Made by a program: the position numbers and the translations under genes
Assembly (NCBI GenBank): GCA_902565895.1
Contig: CACFGV010000005.1
Span: 1-64,000, forward strand
Source of the DNA: K189A clade bacterium
Lineage (GTDB): Bacteria; Pseudomonadota; Gammaproteobacteria; Pseudomonadales; Azotimanducaceae
DNA length: 64,000 nt
Direction: 5' to 3'
Part shown: piece by piece, positions 3,325 to 13,668 of the stretch
Numbering within the stretch: the stretch's first letter is position 1
How the letters are laid out: each line of letters begins with the position of its first letter
The notes under the pieces: model-generated
What the model was told of the DNA's origin: nothing
Database searches by the model: none
The model's input: only the letters and a program-made list of their open reading frames with translations

Positions 3325-5196
3325 CTAGCTCATATCCTCATAGGGGTTGGTCAGCCGCAGGTTTACCGGATTAGGAAAGCCCGGAATAGCGAGCTCGTTA
3401 GGGTCAATATCTAAGTCCTCGCCATCAACGACTCCTTCACCAAACTGATAGATTGGTGCAATAGAGCCATTGTCTGCGTTGTTGTCGTAATCCTCGGCAT
3501 TGGCGATTACGGATTCTTGTTTGCGTTGCATCTCAGTCAAACGGGCTTTGCCCCAACGCTTTTCCAACATCGCCAGGGTTTGATTGGGCGATAAGAAAAG
3601 CCCCGTGGCGTTGTTGCCACCGAAGCCCTTAGAATTAACAAAGGCACCGGGCATAGCGGTGGGGTCAATTTCCACATGCTGCAAGGGCAGGTTGAGATGG
3701 TCGTGGTGGACGTCATCGGCAATATGGTCGATGGTGGTAATGCCAGGGACCCAGCCGTCTTGCCACGCGCCCAGAACAGCCGCCAACTGGTCACCCCCCG
3801 CGGGTGCCATAGAGTGACCGACGAAACACTTAACCGCGCCCACTAGCCACGGCGCCATACCAAATTTTTGTGCGATCTCATTGAGGATGTGGGATTCGGT
3901 TACTCGGTTCTGCGGCGTGCCAGTGCCATGGGCCTGCATATAAGTGCCGTGTTTCAACGCATCATCACCAAGAATTGCACGGGCCGAGGCTACGGCTTTA
4001 GCAACAGTCAAATAATTTCCGATGCCAGGACCGGGGATGGATTTTTTATAGCCGTCTGCATTAACAAAGACGTCACCTACAGAACCCATTATTTGCGCCC
4101 CCTGTTGCATCGCCAATTCGTCATCCATCAAGACAATCCAAACCGACGCCTCAGCAACTGTGAAGCCGGCGTTTGATGAGAATGGTCTGCAGGCTCGACG
4201 ATTGTCGCAATGATCAGTGCCGTCGAGCTTCTTCAGTGCCTCGTCTTCTGCCAGGGCGCCCATAACGCGATAACCTTCGATGACATGGGGTTGCACCGGT
4301 GCTTCTGAGTTACCCACCATAACAATACGTTTATCACCACGCCTGATGTCATCCATGCCGCGTTTGACGTTGTACAAAAACGTGGCGCAGGCGCCAATAA
4401 TGCCAGCGGTCTCACCCACTGAACCCAGCACATAGGCGTTAACAAAGTCCCCAGGCATCTCAGAGAGCCCAAGCGCACAGTGCTTAGAGGAGGGGCGTTT
4501 GCCGAGCAGTGGGTTTTGTAACAGACCAGCGTAGCCATCCGCATCAAGCTGCCCCATGGCTGAACCCGAATAAACCGCAAACTGGTCAGGTGCCACCATG
4601 CTTTTCAGTTGCTCAACACTGAAGCCAGTAGAGCCTAACGTGTCCGAAGCCCCGTACACCGCTAGTTGCAAACCCCGAGGGTGGTTGCGGCTCGGATACA
4701 GAGCCGCTGGATCAAATCCGCTAGGCAGTTGGCCTGCACTGGTGACTTTAGAAGGCCGCAACTCCGGAAGCATCGTTGTTAGAGGTGCTGTACACGCTAC
4801 CTGCACCTGGCCATCGGTTAACTCGGTAACTTTCCAGTCATCGGGAACGCTGTTGGGTAATTGACGTTTGCTGATCACAAAACTCAGAGGTTGTTCGTCA
4901 GCGCCTTGCATTTGTAACGTGGACTGCCAAAGCACGGCGTCTGGGTCGAAGTTTTCGATACGCCGAATGAGAGTGTTGTTACAAATTTGGCGTTTTTCGT
5001 CGCTGCTTAATCCAAGGGAATTGGTCATACCCATGAGCTCGGCAAGGCTTCGATAGGTACGGTCTTGTTTCGACACCGGCAGGGCATCCAATACCATACG
5101 CCGATAAGCGTGATGACCGCTGACGCGCCCTGCTGGATTGATGCCGCCGCAGCCAACAATAACGGGGAGTGGCGTAGTGTTACTGGCTTTACTCAA
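3325..5196 (-). CDS. fabY: FabY-like beta-ketoacyl synthase
   Basis: This is a long ketosynthase of 623 residues. The catalytic triad is intact: Cys270 in IIGACATFLYN, His423 in QAHGTGTPQNR and His461 in CFVGHSMAP. The N-terminal part, starting PVIVGCGGINPAGR with roughly 200 extra residues before the core, and the end NLRLTNPYEDMS resemble Pseudomonas FabY, which starts fatty acid synthesis by condensing acetyl-CoA with malonyl-ACP. The assignment comes from recalled family features. It is the last gene of a minus-strand run moaB-thiolase-ketosynthase, 56 bases after the thiolase and pointing away from the fused carboxylase that would make malonyl-CoA. A secondary-lipid ketosynthase of the same clade is the alternative. 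Confidence 0.78.
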   Translation of the reverse strand: MSKASNTTPLPVIVGCGGINPAGRVSGHHAYRRMVLDALPVSKQDRTYRSLAELMGMTNSLGLSSDEKRQICNNTLIRRIENFDPDAVLWQSTLQMQGADEQPLSFVISKRQLPNSVPDDWKVTELTDGQVQVACTAPLTTMLPELRPSKVTSAGQLPSGFDPAALYPSRNHPRGLQLAVYGASDTLGSTGFSVEQLKSMVAPDQFAVYSGSAMGQLDADGYAGLLQNPLLGKRPSSKHCALGLSEMPGDFVNAYVLGSVGETAGIIGACATFLYNVKRGMDDIRRGDKRIVMVGNSEAPVQPHVIEGYRVMGALAEDEALKKLDGTDHCDNRRACRPFSSNAGFTVAEASVWIVLMDDELAMQQGAQIMGSVGDVFVNADGYKKSIPGPGIGNYLTVAKAVASARAILGDDALKHGTYMQAHGTGTPQNRVTESHILNEIAQKFGMAPWLVGAVKCFVGHSMAPAGGDQLAAVLGAWQDGWVPGITTIDHIADDVHHDHLNLPLQHVEIDPTAMPGAFVNSKGFGGNNATGLFLSPNQTLAMLEKRWGKARLTEMQRKQESVIANAEDYDNNADNGSIAPIYQFGEGVVDGEDLDIDPNELAIPGFPNPVNLRLTNPYEDMS

Positions 5197-5252: not shown

Positions 5253-6410
5253 TTAACGCTCAAGAGCTATGGCGGTTGCCTCGCCGCCGCCGATGCACAA
5301 GGCGGCAATGCCGCGTTGTTTACCCTGATTTTTCATCGCATGAGCCAAGGTCACGATTAAGCGGCTGCCGGTAGAGCCAATCGGATGACCCTGAGCGCAG
5401 GCCCCACCAAATACGTTGACCCGCTTGGTATCTAAACCTAACTCTTGAACCGTAAGCATGGTCACCATGGCAAAGGCTTCGTTGATTTCAAATAGGTCCA
5501 CCGAATCGAGATCCCAGCCAATCTTGTCTGCCAGTTTTTGTATTGCACCTATGGGCGCCAAAGTGAATTCACTTGGATGAATGGAGTGGGTGGCATGACC
5601 AACGACTTTAGCTAACGGTTCGCGATCGCCCAGAGCGTCGGCGCTGGCGAGCACCATTGCTGAAGCGCCATCAGAAATCGAAGAGGCGTTGGCGGCCGTG
5701 ATCGTACCGTCTGCTTTAAAAGCGGGTCGCAAAGAAGGAATGCGATCGATTTTGGCGCGACCTGGTTGTTCATCGTCTTCTACTAAAGTGCCATTGATCT
5801 CCATCGGCGCGATCTCGCTGGCCAAAGAACGATTTTCAATCGCGTTGCGCGCGCGAGTTACGGATTCAATGGCGTAGGCGTCCATAGCCTCGCGGGTTAA
5901 TTGATGTTGGTCCGCGGTATTTTGTGCGAAGGAGCCCATGGAGCCACCTGTTTCGGCATCTTCTAAGCCGTCGGTAAACAGTGCGTCGAGCATTTGGGTA
6001 TGACCCATGCGCAGCCCGGAGCGTGCTTTGTCCAGTAGATAGGGTGCGTTGCTCATGCTTTCCATGCCCCCTGCTACCACAGTATCCGCGCTGCCCGCAC
6101 GAATCAGATCGGTGGCGATCATTGCAGCTTTCATTCCTGAGCCGCACACCTTATTGATGGTTGTGGCACCGCAGCTGTCGGGCAGTTTGGCCTGACGCAT
6201 GGCTTGGCGTGCTGGAGCCTGTTTTAGTCCTGCGCTGACCACGTTACCCATAACCACTTCGTCTACGTCAGATGCGTTGATATCTGCATGACTCAGTGCC
6301 GCAGCAATGGCATGAGCGCCGAGTTGAGGTGCCGTTTGACTGGCAAGAGTGCCTTGTAGACTACCCACTGGTGTGCGTGCTGCGCCGACAATAAAAACAT
6401 CTGAACTCAC
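5253..6410 (-). CDS. Acetyl-CoA C-acetyltransferase (thiolase II family)
   Basis: This 385-residue thiolase interconverts two acetyl-CoA with acetoacetyl-CoA or cleaves short 3-ketoacyl-CoA. The nucleophilic Cys89 lies in NKVCGSGMKAA, with NEAFA near 310, His342 in GGACAQGHPIGSTGSR and Cys372 in CIGGGEATA. Length and motifs fit biosynthetic AtoB/PhaA-type enzymes. It sits between moaB and the FabY-like gene on the same strand. No phaB or phaC lies nearby, so a role in polyhydroxybutyrate synthesis is not supported here. Acetoacetyl-CoA supply or acyl-CoA degradation are both possible. Confidence 0.9.
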   Translation of the reverse strand: MSSDVFIVGAARTPVGSLQGTLASQTAPQLGAHAIAAALSHADINASDVDEVVMGNVVSAGLKQAPARQAMRQAKLPDSCGATTINKVCGSGMKAAMIATDLIRAGSADTVVAGGMESMSNAPYLLDKARSGLRMGHTQMLDALFTDGLEDAETGGSMGSFAQNTADQHQLTREAMDAYAIESVTRARNAIENRSLASEIAPMEINGTLVEDDEQPGRAKIDRIPSLRPAFKADGTITAANASSISDGASAMVLASADALGDREPLAKVVGHATHSIHPSEFTLAPIGAIQKLADKIGWDLDSVDLFEINEAFAMVTMLTVQELGLDTKRVNVFGGACAQGHPIGSTGSRLIVTLAHAMKNQGKQRGIAALCIGGGEATAIALER

Positions 6411-6496: not shown

Positions 6497-7000
6497 TTAA
6501 CGTTCTTTGAAACGCGGTATCAGCTCAGCAAAGTTGCAGGGTCGGAAGTTAATGTCTAACTGGTTATGTAAGATTTTTTGCCACCCTGTTGTCACGGCGC
6601 CGGAAGATCCAGGCAAGCTAAAGATCAAGGTACCGTTTGCTAATCCTCCGACCGCGCGAGATTGGATGGTTGAGGTGCCGATTTCCTCGTAAGAAAGCTG
6701 CCTGAAGATTTCCCCAAAACCCTCGATCTGTTTATCAAAGAGCGGCATCAACGCCTCCGGTGTGCTGTCTCGCCCAGTAAAACCGGTGCCGCCGGTGGTG
6801 ATCACTACGTTAATGGCGGTATCCGCAATCCAATTGGAAACCGCCGCACGAATCGCGTAGATGTCGTCTCGGACGAGATCACGTTCGGCAACTGTGTGGC
6901 CGTCAGCCAGCGCAAATTGCTGTAGCAGGTCGCCAGACTTGTCATCTTGAAGAGTTCGAGTGTCGGATATCGTGAGGATGGCACAGATCAAATTTGGCAT
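6497..7000 (-). CDS. moaB: Molybdenum cofactor biosynthesis protein MoaB
   Basis: This is a MoaB/MogA-fold protein of 167 residues. The nucleotide-binding motif TTGGTGFTGRDSTPEA, the segment SYEEIGTSTIQSRAV and the glycine-rich SLPGSSGAV match MoaB. The family adenylates molybdopterin or acts redundantly with MogA in cofactor maturation. I chose ATG at 7000 because it precedes PNLICAILTISDTR, the first conserved strand; a TTG at 7018 would add six residues. The gene is divergent from the giant carboxylase, with only about 66 bases between the starts. It precedes the thiolase by 86 bases. No other molybdopterin genes are nearby. Confidence 0.9.
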   Translation of the reverse strand: MPNLICAILTISDTRTLQDDKSGDLLQQFALADGHTVAERDLVRDDIYAIRAAVSNWIADTAINVVITTGGTGFTGRDSTPEALMPLFDKQIEGFGEIFRQLSYEEIGTSTIQSRAVGGLANGTLIFSLPGSSGAVTTGWQKILHNQLDINFRPCNFAELIPRFKER

Positions 7001-7066
7001 GGCTTTAATTGCGCTCAATTGGGCAAATGGCTAAAGTAGCGCCATTCTACACACAGTCAAAAACAC

Positions 7067-10000
7067 GTGGTCAAGCAGCTCATCGAAGGGGATCGGCTTT
7101 TTTTTATAGCCGAGAGTCTCGCTAAGGATTTTTCACTGTTCCCACAGGTCGCTCAAGAAGAGCAGCCAGTGCCCGGACTGCTGTCTGATCGCGACATCAA
7201 CCGTAGGCAAGAGGAGCTTCGTGAACTCAACATAGACGCCTACATTGAAGCGGTGGTCACGCCAGCGGAGGACCAAAGCCGAACAGCTGCACCTGCCATA
7301 ATTCGTCAGTTGGGCCGTGTACTCGAAGAACAGTCCTCTGGTCCTTACTACCAAGCTTTAGTTCTAATGAACTTTGGCGAAGGCGTTGAACGTGAGATTG
7401 GGTTTATCGCCCAGGATCGTACGGTTGAGCTCGGCAGCTGGATGCCAGAACATCATCTACGAGCAGCGGACTTCATTGATCGTTGTTCGTCCCGCGCCTT
7501 GCCCATTGTCAGCTTTATGGATACCCCCGGGGCGGATCCGCGCGAAGAAGCCAACATTAATAATCAGGCGCATAGTATTTCCCGTTTGATTGCGGAAATG
7601 AGCAATGTCGATGTCCCCAACGTAGGGCTGGTCTATGGCATTGGGTATTCTGGCGGCGCTATTCCGCTTGCGGCGAGTAACGTTATTCTTTCGTTGCGTG
7701 ACGGTATCTTCAGTACCATCCAGCCTGCGGGTCTGGCGAACATCGCCCGCCGTCTGAATCTGTCCTGGCAGGAGTGCGCAAAGTACGTAGGTGTGTCGCC
7801 TTACGAGTTGCATGCCCAGGGCAATATTGACGCGATAGTCGATTACAGCCCGACTGATGCGCCAGATAAGTTAGAGAATCTGCGACTTGCGTTGATCCAC
7901 AGTATTGTAAATGTTGAATCGCGAACGAAAGAGTTCGTCGCTGATAACCCCTACATTATGGATCACTATCGTCAGAGCTTGCTGCGCTATTTGAAGCCTT
8001 CGCAGCAGCTGCAGGCGATGCAAAGCTCGGCGTCTTTGGCGTTAACGCGCAACCCGACCGAATACCTGAATGTCTTTGGTGTGGCTTTTCGGTACCTGCG
8101 TTATCTGCAGGTACGCAAGCGCATTAAAGCCACCAGCACTCAGCAATATGGCCGCTTAGCAGAACAAGAGGTTCCCGCTGGTGAATTACACACTCGGGCA
8201 GATCGCGAGCGCCAACAAACCTTTTTGTATTGGCTGCAAGATCCTGACCGAGTGGTGTACGACGAGGCGTTGTCCAAGGCGTGGCGAAACTATCAGGATA
8301 AACGCCAGGCGATGAACGATGAGCGTGGTCGTATCGCGCAAATGATATTTGGTGAACCTAAACAGAATTACGAAAACGCGCGTGCAAATTTGCTCTCAAC
8401 CGTAGGGGTTTTTCTTTACAACCGGTGGAAGAAAGAAGCGCGGGGCAACTTGGAAGCGCTGCAGCAATACTTGCAAGACGATGTCGCAACTCGGCAGATT
8501 TTGCAGTTAAGTGAAGTCACTGACGCAGCTGCCTTGCTAAATGCCATCGTCAACGACACAGCGCTTAAAGAGCAACTCTACGATCAGTTCTCCCACGAAG
8601 GTCGCAAGCTGCTCGATGCCGGCGCGGTTGAGGGTTCAGTATCTGGATTTGTTGCCAAGCAACTGGTTGCTGAACTGAATATGTTGATCGCTAATGGCGC
8701 GCTAGATGGCGATAACTCGATGGCGGCAAATCGTCGCTTTCTCAATTCGCGCTTACCCGGTTTAATTCCGCCTCCGGTAGTCGGTGCCAAACCCGTCGTA
8801 TTGGCTGAGTTATCTGTCCTGGATATCTTGTTGAACGAAGAGCTAAGGGCTGACTTCATTCTAGAATGTAAGAACTTATTGCTGTTTGACTCGGTATACG
8901 ACCGAGTAATTGACAGTCTTGATTCCGTTGCGGCAGAAGCTCAAGCAAGTCAGGCGCTATCTCAGGCTTCGTTAGTACGTCTGCTTGATCAAACTTTGAC
9001 CCAGGTCATGGGTACGGATGAGCCGGTTTCGGCAGCACGTGAGCAATTGTTTGACTGGCACCAGCGGGTTATGAAAATGCCGAAGGGTGTGGAGTTTTTT
9101 CGCACTGTAGAGGAGTGGAAGAAGCTCAGCTTCGCGCATTTAGCCGATGCACTGTTTGTGGTGGTGACCCATGTTTTTGGTGTGTTGACACCGTCGCTGA
9201 TCGCCGCTGAGCGCGACGGCAAAACCTATCAAGGAAAAATTGCACCACGCAATATTGGCCGGCGGAAAGATTTTTGGAATCGCTTGGACATGGCGTACAA
9301 CGACCTGCAGATGCAGGACGTTCTGCGGCTTATTCGCAAAGACCACCAGTTCACTTATAACGACATTATTGAGCAGTTCTTTGATGATTGGGAGCCATGC
9401 TTTGATGATCTCTTAAGCTCCGATCCGTGCTCGTTTCCCGGGTTCAGAGTTTCGATAGAGAGCGCGCTGAATAAAGGTTTGCCACCCTGCGGTGTGGTCA
9501 CTGGCTTTGCCAATGTTAAAGCTATGCAAAACACCAAAGTCGGCGTGGTCATGTCTAATGTGCAGTTCCAGGCCGGAGCCTTTGACATGGCCAGTGCCGA
9601 GAAAGTTATTCGACTTTTATTAGAGTGTGCCGAACAGCACCTACCGGTAGTGTGTTTTATATCGTCGGGCGGAATGCAAACGAAAGAAGGCGCCGGAGCG
9701 CTGTTTTCGATGGCCGCAGTAAACGACCGCATAACACGGTTTGTGCGCGACCACGATTTGCCAATGATCGTATTCGGCTATGGCGATTGTACCGGTGGCG
9801 CCCAAGCGAGTTTTGTCACGCACCCATTAGTGCAGACCTACTACTGGTCCGGCACCAGCATGCCCTTCGCTGGACAAATTGTTGTGCCCTCTAATTTGCC
9901 GCTTCGCTCCATTATGTCGAATTATTTGTCGGCTAATGAAGGGGCTATGCAGGGACTGGTTAAACACCCCTTTTACCCGTCCATCGATGAATCTTTACGC

Positions 10001-11875
10001 GGCGTAGACGCCACCATTCCCGTGGCGGATGAGACCGTTGACGATGTCATGACTCGCATACTGCAAGGTCGTCTGGTGAATCAGCGGCCTGTAGTGGTGG
10101 CCCATCGTCCTGTCTACACCGATCAGGATCTGGTTCGGCCGGTGCGTAAGGTTCTGATTCATGCGCGTGGTTGTACTGCGGCGAAGTTAATTCGCATCGC
10201 TCAGCAGCAAAATATCCAAGTAGTTCTGGTGCAAAGTGATCCGGATATGGAATCAGCAGCCGTTGACCAGCTCACAGACAACGATACGTTGGTATGCATT
10301 GGCGGCAACACGCCTGACGAAAGTTATCTGAACGCACAGAGTGTGCTGAATGTTGCAGAGAATCAGGGCGCTGACAGTTTGCATCCGGGTATAGGTTTCC
10401 TATCGGAAAACTCAGGCTTTGCAGAATTGGTGCGCTCTCATGGCATTAATTTTATTGGGCCCCCTGTCGCCAGTATGGAGACCATGGGTAACAAATCTAA
10501 TGCCATCAATACTGCACTGCGCCTTAATGTACCGGTAGTGCCCGGCAGCCACGGCATTATGACGGACGTGGATCGGGCCTCAGAAGTGGCGGCAGAGATT
10601 GGCTATCCAATCCTAATAAAAGCCGTGCATGGAGGCGGTGGTAAGGGCATTCAGGTAGTGGAAAGTCCCTCTGAATTCCAGCAGTTGTTCCACCGTGTAG
10701 GCATCGAGGCTCGAAGCGCCTTCGGCAACGGCGATGTGTACTTAGAAAAGTATGTGACCTCGCTGCGGCATATCGAAGCACAGTTGTTACGAGATACCCA
10801 TGGCAATACCCATGTGTTGGGCATTCGTGATTGCAGTGTGCAGCGAGATAAACAAAAGGTAATCGAAGAATCAGCTTCGACTACGCTGCCCGAGGAATTG
10901 CTGCAACAGGTGATCCGATCCACTGCCGACATAGCCAATGAGGTCGGTTATGTTGGCGCGGGCACCGTTGAGTTTATCTACGACCTGGCGGCCAACGCGG
11001 TCTATTTCATGGAAATGAATACCCGGTTGCAGGTTGAACATCCGGTTACGGAATGGGTCAGCGGGATCGATATCGTAGCGCAGCAGTTCCGCATTGCCGC
11101 GGGCGAATCTATTGCCGATTTGACGGTACAAAATAATGGTTACGCGATGGAAGCGCGTATTAATGCTGAGCGCATACTCAAGCAAGGTGACGGCAGCTTG
11201 GCGTTCCGGCCGCATCCTGGCGAGGTAGAGACCTGCCATTTCCCTGAAGAAGAAGGTGTTGAAATTATTGCCGCGGTAGGGCCGGGCAAGTTTATCTCGC
11301 CTTACTACGACAGCATGGTCGCGCAGATCATCGTGCATGCCGAGTCCCGAGAAGCGGCAGCGGCCAAGCTCGCCGACTATTTAGGACGTATCGAGCTCAG
11401 TGGTATCTGCACGAACATTCCGCTGTTGCGCAAAGTTCTTGTGGATGAGGTGTTCTTAGCGGGTGTTTACGACACCAATTATCTGCCTGAACTGTTGCAA
11501 CGCCTAGACATAGACCAATTGATCGAAGCCATAGAACAGGGGTCTGGTGCGGCTAACGCAGGCATCGATCTAAACAGCCTGCGCATTGAAGCCAGCGATG
11601 AGCTTAAAGTTTTGGCCCCAGCAACAGCCATTTTCTACAGCACGCCATCGCCTTCCGAGCCTGAATACGTAAGTGTGGGCGATGAAATCGCGGTCGATCA
11701 TACGTTGTGTCAGTTAGAGGCAATGAAGATTTTTAGCCCGCTGAGCCTTGCCGACTTCAATACGGATGGTGATCTTTATGATCCTTCCAAACGCTATCAG
11801 GTCACGCGCATTAACATGAGCAACGGCCAACAAGTGAACGTAGGCGACTTGCTGTTCGTAGTGAAACCGGTCTAG
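7067..11875 (+). CDS. Single-chain acetyl/acyl-CoA carboxylase: CT-alpha, CT-beta, biotin carboxylase and biotinyl domains
   Basis: This 1602-residue protein appears to hold every function of acetyl-CoA carboxylase. Residues ~80-270 are AccA-like (oxyanion-type GIGYSGGAIPLA near 191). Residues ~300-750 are a helical linker I do not recognise. Residues ~760-1000 are AccD-like (SSGGMQTKEGAG near 865, GGAQASF near 911), with no C4 zinc finger visible. Residues ~1024-1480 are an ATP-grasp biotin carboxylase (HGGGGKG near 1188, MEMNTRLQVEH near 1315). The C-terminus has a biotinyl domain with LEAMKI at Lys1554. Family knowledge predicts ATP-dependent carboxylation of acetyl-CoA or another acyl-CoA. 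The order CT-alpha, CT-beta, BC, BCCP differs from the eukaryotic order. The start is GTG with no clear ribosome site. Confidence 0.88.
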   Translation: MVKQLIEGDRLFFIAESLAKDFSLFPQVAQEEQPVPGLLSDRDINRRQEELRELNIDAYIEAVVTPAEDQSRTAAPAIIRQLGRVLEEQSSGPYYQALVLMNFGEGVEREIGFIAQDRTVELGSWMPEHHLRAADFIDRCSSRALPIVSFMDTPGADPREEANINNQAHSISRLIAEMSNVDVPNVGLVYGIGYSGGAIPLAASNVILSLRDGIFSTIQPAGLANIARRLNLSWQECAKYVGVSPYELHAQGNIDAIVDYSPTDAPDKLENLRLALIHSIVNVESRTKEFVADNPYIMDHYRQSLLRYLKPSQQLQAMQSSASLALTRNPTEYLNVFGVAFRYLRYLQVRKRIKATSTQQYGRLAEQEVPAGELHTRADRERQQTFLYWLQDPDRVVYDEALSKAWRNYQDKRQAMNDERGRIAQMIFGEPKQNYENARANLLSTVGVFLYNRWKKEARGNLEALQQYLQDDVATRQILQLSEVTDAAALLNAIVNDTALKEQLYDQFSHEGRKLLDAGAVEGSVSGFVAKQLVAELNMLIANGALDGDNSMAANRRFLNSRLPGLIPPPVVGAKPVVLAELSVLDILLNEELRADFILECKNLLLFDSVYDRVIDSLDSVAAEAQASQALSQASLVRLLDQTLTQVMGTDEPVSAAREQLFDWHQRVMKMPKGVEFFRTVEEWKKLSFAHLADALFVVVTHVFGVLTPSLIAAERDGKTYQGKIAPRNIGRRKDFWNRLDMAYNDLQMQDVLRLIRKDHQFTYNDIIEQFFDDWEPCFDDLLSSDPCSFPGFRVSIESALNKGLPPCGVVTGFANVKAMQNTKVGVVMSNVQFQAGAFDMASAEKVIRLLLECAEQHLPVVCFISSGGMQTKEGAGALFSMAAVNDRITRFVRDHDLPMIVFGYGDCTGGAQASFVTHPLVQTYYWSGTSMPFAGQIVVPSNLPLRSIMSNYLSANEGAMQGLVKHPFYPSIDESLRGVDATIPVADETVDDVMTRILQGRLVNQRPVVVAHRPVYTDQDLVRPVRKVLIHARGCTAAKLIRIAQQQNIQVVLVQSDPDMESAAVDQLTDNDTLVCIGGNTPDESYLNAQSVLNVAENQGADSLHPGIGFLSENSGFAELVRSHGINFIGPPVASMETMGNKSNAINTALRLNVPVVPGSHGIMTDVDRASEVAAEIGYPILIKAVHGGGGKGIQVVESPSEFQQLFHRVGIEARSAFGNGDVYLEKYVTSLRHIEAQLLRDTHGNTHVLGIRDCSVQRDKQKVIEESASTTLPEELLQQVIRSTADIANEVGYVGAGTVEFIYDLAANAVYFMEMNTRLQVEHPVTEWVSGIDIVAQQFRIAAGESIADLTVQNNGYAMEARINAERILKQGDGSLAFRPHPGEVETCHFPEEEGVEIIAAVGPGKFISPYYDSMVAQIIVHAESREAAAAKLADYLGRIELSGICTNIPLLRKVLVDEVFLAGVYDTNYLPELLQRLDIDQLIEAIEQGSGAANAGIDLNSLRIEASDELKVLAPATAIFYSTPSPSEPEYVSVGDEIAVDHTLCQLEAMKIFSPLSLADFNTDGDLYDPSKRYQVTRINMSNGQQVNVGDLLFVVKPV

Positions 11876-12789: not shown

Positions 12790-13668
12790 ATGATTGAAAA
12801 TTTAGAAACATTGGTAACGTTGTCAAAGACCGGCACGATGATGGAAGCCAGTACCGCCATGCGAATTTCTCAGTCTGCGGTGAGTAAGCGCATTGCCGCG
12901 TTGGAGCGCTACTATGATCGAGAATTGATAGAGCGGCACGGTCGGCGGGTGGTGCTGACCCATCACGGCACCCGCTTGGTGGAGCGGGTTACACCCTTGT
13001 TATCGGAGTTACGCAGTGTGTTCTTAGAGGACAATGCACTGCGAAAAGGCAAGATTATCTTGGGCGTTTCAGAGGCGATTCTGGCCAGTTGGGGGCCGCA
13101 TTTCTTTGCGCAAATACGTGACCGGCTGCCCGAGGTGGAATTTGAATTTCACGCCCAGCGATCACCAGTGGTGCTGGATCGGCTGCGTTCCGGAGAATAT
13201 ATGGTCGGCATCTGTACCGGCAGTTCAGACGCGGATACGGATTTGGTATCGGAGGTGATCCGCCAAGAACCTATGGTAATCATCCCATCAGGATTGGAGC
13301 CATTGAAGTACAAGCTCGGTAAGCCGTTACAGGTTCTAACCATTGAGTCGCGCTCCGGTGCTTGGGGTTCGATAGAAGAAAATATGCAGCGCCTGAATCT
13401 TGATCGAGTGGTGTCGTTGGAGTCGTTCTTTGCAGTAGCGCAGATGGCATTGTCTGGATTCGGCCATGGCTTAGTGCCTATTGGCGTCGCCAATACATTG
13501 GGCATCGCCGATGGAGACTTGATTAAGTTGCCGCGCAGTCATGCATCGCGGCCAACGCTTACCCGCCCAGTGCGCTTTGTTGCGCGAAAGTCGATGTTTG
13601 CCCAAGCGTTAGTGCGCAGTTTTTACGCTGAGGCCTCGACTCATGCAGCAGCGATGGACGTCGACTAG
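12790..13668 (+). CDS. LysR-family transcriptional regulator
   Basis: This LysR-type regulator of 292 residues has an N-terminal winged helix-turn-helix (about residues 1-60, SQSAVSKRIAALERYYDREL being the recognition region) followed by a two-lobed effector-binding domain. The closest neighbour is the divergent TSUP permease, so autoregulation and control of that permease are the simple inference. The 83-base intergenic region holds an imperfect ATT...AAT dyad (around 12745-12762) of the T-N11-A type. The effector is unknown. The 3' end converges on hemH with a 23-base gap. Confidence 0.88.
   Translation: MIENLETLVTLSKTGTMMEASTAMRISQSAVSKRIAALERYYDRELIERHGRRVVLTHHGTRLVERVTPLLSELRSVFLEDNALRKGKIILGVSEAILASWGPHFFAQIRDRLPEVEFEFHAQRSPVVLDRLRSGEYMVGICTGSSDADTDLVSEVIRQEPMVIIPSGLEPLKYKLGKPLQVLTIESRSGAWGSIEENMQRLNLDRVVSLESFFAVAQMALSGFGHGLVPIGVANTLGIADGDLIKLPRSHASRPTLTRPVRFVARKSMFAQALVRSFYAEASTHAAAMDVD

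Follow-up and report, generated by a model that had tools for sequence, protein, structure and literature searches.

The window analysed here, a 64,000-nucleotide stretch of DNA from a K189A clade bacterium, contains one long gene with motifs of all four functions of acetyl-CoA carboxylase (ACC), the enzyme for the first step towards fatty acids. This raises the question of what enzyme it encodes, whether that enzyme is of a known kind, and what has become of the separate subunits in its lineage. Our analysis indicates that the gene very probably encodes the organism's acetyl-CoA carboxylase, a member of the single-chain AccS (AccADCB) family. The domain architecture is already known from AccS, and the window protein adds a member to a family already described; what makes the locus interesting is the spread of the AccS type, gene replacement and, above all, a retained stand-alone AccB.

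Domain organization of the fused protein

The gene is one uninterrupted frame (Table 1), and Pfam and NCBIfam searches assign its parts in the order carboxyltransferase (CT)-alpha, helical linker, CT-beta, biotin carboxylase (BC) and biotin carboxyl carrier protein (BCCP), bearing out the original prediction of four ACC functions in one chain and in an unusual order. In Pfam, ACCA matches residues 121-270 (1.6e-25), the BC part comprises Biotin_carb_N (1026-1137), CPSase_L_D2 (1143-1349) and Biotin_carb_C (1362-1474), and Biotin_lipoyl at 1518-1557 scores slightly below its cut-off (E 0.00014; 22.0 bits versus 22.1). Two NCBIfam matches also lie below cut-off, namely accD (TIGR00515) at residues 773-918 (5.3e-10; 39.1 bits, far below) and BCCP (TIGR00531) at 1511-1600 (1.4e-10). 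AccA families are the best match of the CT-alpha part, and 2f9i_A (AccA) matches the structure model of this part with Z 26.4 over 247 residues (rmsd 2.8). The CT-beta part is matched at profile positions 796-941 by 2f9i_B (AccD), with 59 bits the top hit among subunit structures. The biotinyl lysine K1554 lies within an EAMKI motif (codon 11726-11728); by homology, the BC domain would use ATP and bicarbonate to carboxylate biotin on this residue of the C-terminal BCCP.

Table 1. Features of the fused carboxylase gene and its neighbours in the window
Feature	Position	Strand	Residues and basis
FabY-type beta-ketoacyl synthase	3325..5196	-	Best PDB match 4cw4; two genes between it and the ACC gene
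Acetyl-CoA acetyltransferase-type thiolase	5253..6410	-	NCBIfam
MoaB	6497..7018	-	TIGR02667 over cut-off; transcribed away from the ACC gene
AccS-type single-chain acetyl-CoA carboxylase gene	7067..11875	+	1602 aa, GTG start; family searches and 9kkm match
CT-alpha (AccA-like) part	7199..7936	+	Residues ~45-290; GYSGGA motif; Pfam ACCA; TIGR00513 at 7445-7936
Helical linker	7937..9391	+	Residues ~291-775; mostly alignable to the same region of 9kkm
Extra linker block	8480..8764	+	Residues 472-566; without sequence alignment to 9kkm
CT-beta (AccD-like) part, no zinc finger	9392..10069	+	Residues ~776-1001; G910, G911; TIGR00515 at 9377-9820
Biotin carboxylase	10142..11500	+	Residues 1026-1478; Pfam, NCBIfam, alignment, BC tree
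BCCP	11597..11872	+	TIGR00531; AccB-type thumb (by eye against AccB); biotinyl lysine K1554
LysR-type regulator	12790..13668	+	Pfam; co-oriented with the ACC gene; candidate regulator

Relationship to AccS

Among solved structures, 9kkm (1517 aa; 'Acetyl-CoA carboxylase multifunctional enzyme AccADCB') is the best match; it aligns with residues 8-471 and 567-1602 of the window protein at 1686 bits, leaving residues 1-7 and 472-566 without a counterpart by sequence. The model of residues 1-1020 matches 9kkm_A with Z 44.8 over 843 residues (rmsd 4.0, 49% identity), and the next structural matches are AccA chains at Z 26. According to its title, 9kkm is an acetyl-CoA carboxyltransferase holoenzyme dimer from Shewanella oneidensis; it carries the mutation E1238A and was released on 2025-11-19. 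No paper describing the entry was found in the literature searched. Because the organism, the length (1517 aa) and the name (multifunctional enzyme) agree, 9kkm appears to be the S. oneidensis AccS (SO_0840).

AccS, a protein of 1517 aa, has been named as the replacement of AccABCD in S. oneidensis (PMC4793157) and shown to serve as the ACCase of this organism (PMC11602165, PMC4793157). According to PMC11602165, accS is activated by the LysR-type regulator AccR, the growth defect of an accR mutant is caused by low AccS and cured by E. coli accA, accD and accBC, and the differing domain order of AccS is itself remarked on. The original prediction, sound as to functions, order, helical linker, missing zinc finger and a marine setting, knew of no described function for such proteins; this part does not stand, since AccS has the same architecture and acts as ACCase. 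In PMC9803151, 'accADCB' occurs within a gene list only. For the window protein itself, we infer enzyme activity, substrate, dimer state, linker role and regulation.

Linker and conserved positions

The linker, initially regarded as unassigned, is for the most part covered by the 9kkm alignment. In the structure model, obtained from one job on residues 1-1020 (mean pLDDT 76.0, pTM 0.66; some parts, including CT-beta loops, below pLDDT 50), zero strands of at least 3 residues lie between residues ~259 and ~771, in keeping with the helical character first proposed. The window protein carries ~95 additional linker residues. Across 75 aligned fused proteins, the block at 472-566 measures 93-121 aa in 70 long-form rows and 10-13 aa in 5 short-form rows. 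The linker would probably hold the CT halves and BC in position.

The same alignment agrees with the predicted lack of a zinc finger in CT-beta: neither a zinc finger nor a CxxC pair was found in its conserved columns at residues 540-839, where only columns 601, 788 and 808 have cysteine in 50% or more of the rows. The positions regarded as catalytic are those known from work on E. coli. The CT-site glycines G193, G196, G197, G910 and G911 are invariant in 43/43 rows of another alignment; the 75-row alignment was selected by a motif containing G910 and G911 and is no test of those two. No variation is seen at any of the eleven BC positions checked (75/75 rows), and the biotinylation site has K in each of the 48 rows reaching it, the other 27 being gapped there. 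An unusual biotinylation motif, EAFK in place of EAMK, is found in eight fused proteins (L109, L117, L120, L121, L132, L134, L136 and L138).

Distribution of the fused gene and loss of separate subunits

Relatives were searched in 38 genomes: 25 belong to the window's genus, among them its own, and 13 to other families of the order. Full-length copies are present in 19 of the 25 genus genomes, counting the window's own, and pieces in a further 5, mostly at contig edges; the fused gene was not found in the remaining genus member, G007, itself 70% complete. Identity to the window protein is 71-92% for the other full-length copies and 60-78% for the pieces. Named contigs encode the protein too, among them one from a TMED92 MAG (91% identical) and one from a MAG under the name marine gamma proteobacterium HTCC2089 (70% identical), over the first 1020 residues. 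NCBI lists HTCC2089 within the OMG group as part of the K189A clade; the early hint at marine Gammaproteobacteria was correct. Two genus members carry additional copies: G006 has a second fused protein, 58% identical (L010, G006:C57), without the fabY-moaB neighbourhood, and G009 has a second piece, 64% identical.

Whether separate subunit genes exist elsewhere in the genome was a point raised at the outset. Stand-alone accA, accD and accC over the NCBI cut-off are each found in 0/25 genomes of the genus, and full-length stand-alone AccB over cut-off in 21/25. The window's own genome is 68.8% complete, and the case for absence of the subunits rests on the relatives. Among the 13 genomes of other families, accD, accC and accB are over cut-off in 13/13 and accA in 12/13; the thirteenth (G036) has a partial accA close to a contig start that scores 318.6 against a cut-off of 319.3. 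Thus, in the genus, the fused protein appears to have replaced three of the four usual separate subunits.

An order-wide survey of 390 genomes, with the best 5 candidates per genome scored for accA, found 47 genomes with the fused protein and 339 with canonical accA (E 1e-60). In the cross-table, made by hand comparison of genome handles, 44 of the 47 fused-positive genomes are without canonical accA and three have it (G030, G073 and G287), while 336 of 343 fused-negative genomes have accA and seven have neither at these thresholds (G094, G148, G197, G308, G344, G361 and G379). Fused-positive genomes cluster in eight families (f1, f6, f7, f17, f22, f25, f39 and f47), so that they represent few independent events. 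In a class-wide sample, 6 of 369 genomes are fused-positive, including the window's own; the other five belong to three families outside the order.

Two fused-positive genomes of the order show arrangements of their own. G030, with accA, accB, accC and accD all over cut-off, has a divergent fused copy (L009, G030:C8) behind a ketosynthase-like frame and others that by eye resemble fatty acid genes; the copy is perhaps for a special lipid. In family f47, G277 (contamination 6%) has a short-form fused gene (L220, G277:C39), no accA match and a kept accB, and nine other sampled genomes of the family have accA listed and the fused gene in none, so that G277 is possibly a recent replacement.

Gene neighbourhood and regulation

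Gene context was read from the best 80 of 504 relatives (511 stretches, E 1e-3), with counts based on loci that have enough flank. In these loci, moaB (70/72), the FabY-type gene (57/59) and the thiolase (55/70) lie upstream of the fused gene, the LysR gene lies downstream in 34/44, and a TauE-family gene (38/46) and a hemH-like gene (27/42) lie nearby. Beyond the group of these 80 loci the arrangement is not conserved: in the 12 loci examined, 11 of them in other families and one the second copy L010 of G006, searches at E 1e-5 gave no moaB, thiolase or LysR, and the FabY query hit nothing but different ketosynthase-like frames (24-27% identity; L215, L216 and L009). The FabY-type protein of the window is homologous over its full length (residues 8-621 of 623, E 3.6e-181) to 4cw4, the structure of Pseudomonas aeruginosa FabY. 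In P. aeruginosa, FabY initiates fatty acid synthesis. Since fabH is rarely over cut-off (1/25 genomes of the genus, 2/13 others), FabY probably starts fatty acid synthesis in the window's lineage as well.

No divergent accR stands beside the ACC gene in the window, where the divergent neighbour is moaB. For AccS organisms, arrangements with and without a divergent accR are both reported, and in many of them another LysR gene is located near accS in the same direction (PMC11602165). The LysR gene of the window fits the latter arrangement: in relatives keeping the gene, its protein is 60-97% identical to that of the window and its direction is always that of the ACC gene. For the window LysR protein, the PDB search gave 11 matches, all weak (best E 9.7e-09) and not one of them annotated as AccR, and a promoter and terminator scan of positions 6900-7200 found nothing.

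The retained stand-alone AccB

The retention of stand-alone AccB is the most unexpected result. In the window's own genome, 68.8% complete as noted, no stand-alone AccB was found. The accB loci of 19 of the 21 AccB-bearing genus genomes (L171-L189) and of 6 of the 8 in related genera (L195-L200) were fetched, and a frame with an ESMKMM motif is present in all 25. In 19/19 genus loci a prmA-like frame lies directly behind accB, with no accC between them, and in 18/19 an aroQ-like frame lies ahead of it (both names by eye); at a canonical locus (L190, G034), by comparison, ~1.3 kb separates accB from prmA, and accC sits there. The closest accB pairs are under purifying selection, with dN/dS of 0.05-0.17 in the 8 closest pairs (simple Nei-Gojobori; pairs share members, and one dS exceeds 1.5), which raises the question of the role of a biotin carrier without partners. 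Elsewhere in the family, AccB over cut-off occurs in 8/14 genomes outside the genus; it is also present in the three genomes keeping accA and in G277.

One possible addition to the main reading, which we put forward tentatively and consider rather less probable than its opposite, is that the fused enzyme works with the stand-alone AccB, either as a shuttle in trans or as a regulator of the enzyme or of its biotinylation. The frequent retention of AccB, the loci with no accC between accB and prmA, the frames with the ESMKMM motif and the low dN/dS values speak for it, as does the same combination in S. oneidensis, for which an additional stand-alone AccB, SO_0511, is listed (PMC4793157). On the other hand, the fused protein already has its own BCCP, none of the 25 fused-positive genomes of f22, f39, f17 and f25 has AccB over cut-off, so that it is not generally needed, and in PMC11602165 the biotinylated bands of S. 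oneidensis are AccS and LiuD only. Speculatively, and with similarly modest likelihood, the leftover AccB of bacteria with AccS-type enzymes may be a working part and not a relic, acting either as an additional biotin carrier or by sensing biotin and acetyl-CoA status and so tuning the fused carboxylase in trans. On this view the HTCC2089/K189A-like lineage would have retained it once accBC had lost accC, and S. oneidensis would have retained it as well.

Substrate and other alternative readings

A more distant alternative, which we regard as improbable, is that the single-chain enzyme acts mainly on propionyl-CoA or a longer acyl-CoA and that malonyl-CoA is supplied by a PCC-type enzyme, the situation in Actinobacteria. 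The PCC-type enzymes of the genus could in principle carboxylate acetyl-CoA instead: PCC-type CT frames (~510-620 aa) reach 61-69 bits with the accD model in G003, G006, G008, G009, G010 and G019, above the fused CT-beta, and acyl-CoA carboxylase alpha-like frames reach up to 619 bits with the accC model (cut-off 626.5), above the ~450-468 bits of the fused BC. Moreover, the single-chain enzyme of Saccharopolyspora erythraea accepts both acetyl- and propionyl-CoA (PMC6491548). As these frames outscore the fused parts, it is the AccS relationship and the gene losses that carry the ACC identity, not the accD or accC model scores. Against another substrate stand the nearest solved relative, which comes from S. 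oneidensis, where AccS is the ACC; the preference of CT-alpha for AccA families and of CT-beta for AccD among subunit structures; the AccB-type thumb in BCCP (by eye); and, in the genus, the lack of any accA, accC or accD over cut-off, with FabY nearby. The window gene is accordingly read as an acetyl-CoA carboxylase of the AccS type.

Membership in crotonase-like or decarboxylase families, considered from the start as a possible pitfall, is rejected, as the protein has a BC part and its CT halves hit carboxyltransferase families in Pfam and NCBIfam. An assembly or frame artefact, the other early concern, has a negligible probability and is rejected: G011 and G024 have one internal stop each, but 17 other members of the genus and the named contigs have stop-free full-length copies, relatives in other assemblies reach 89-92% identity, and a solved homologue exists.

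Origin of the fusion

In a tree of 38 BC domains, a 100/100 branch sets all 24 fused rows apart from the rest, the 9 AccC rows (100/99) included. This one tree, in which the fused branch is long and its placement unsure, allows a single origin of the fusion. It gives no support for the fused BC having arisen from the order's own AccC, the fused rows lying outside the AccC rows, again with unsure placement. The long and short linker forms are not cleanly split in the tree, each with 3 changes.

Comparison with known systems

The window protein shares with the E. coli-type AccABCD system its CT halves, which match AccA and AccD, its BCCP, which matches AccB, and its BC, which matches AccC models, whereas the E. 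coli-type enzyme consists of four separate proteins. Canonical AccD bears an N-terminal four-cysteine zinc finger, unlike the CT-beta part of the window protein. The single-chain long-chain acyl-CoA carboxylase 4rcn is likewise biotin-dependent and a single chain, but it matches the window protein with only 28 bits (profile positions 105-200), and its domain order is BC first, then BT and CT. SACE_4237 of S. erythraea and eukaryotic ACC also combine every function in one chain; SACE_4237 supplies malonyl-CoA and is homologous end to end with eukaryotic ACC (PMC6491548), for which the order BC-BCCP-CT is given (PMC3199775). Pfam and NCBIfam place the domains of the window protein in a different order.

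AccS of S. oneidensis (SO_0840; PDB 9kkm, 9w4a) is the same in domains and order and is homologous nearly end to end, most of the linker included; in both lineages the four-subunit enzyme is absent and an extra stand-alone AccB is present. The two proteins differ in sequence (45-49% identity over the modelled first 1020 residues) and in length, 1517 aa for AccS versus 1602 aa for the window protein, with the extra block 472-566 on the window side. Their loci differ as well: AccS is accompanied by a divergent accR, and the window gene instead by moaB, a thiolase gene and fabY.
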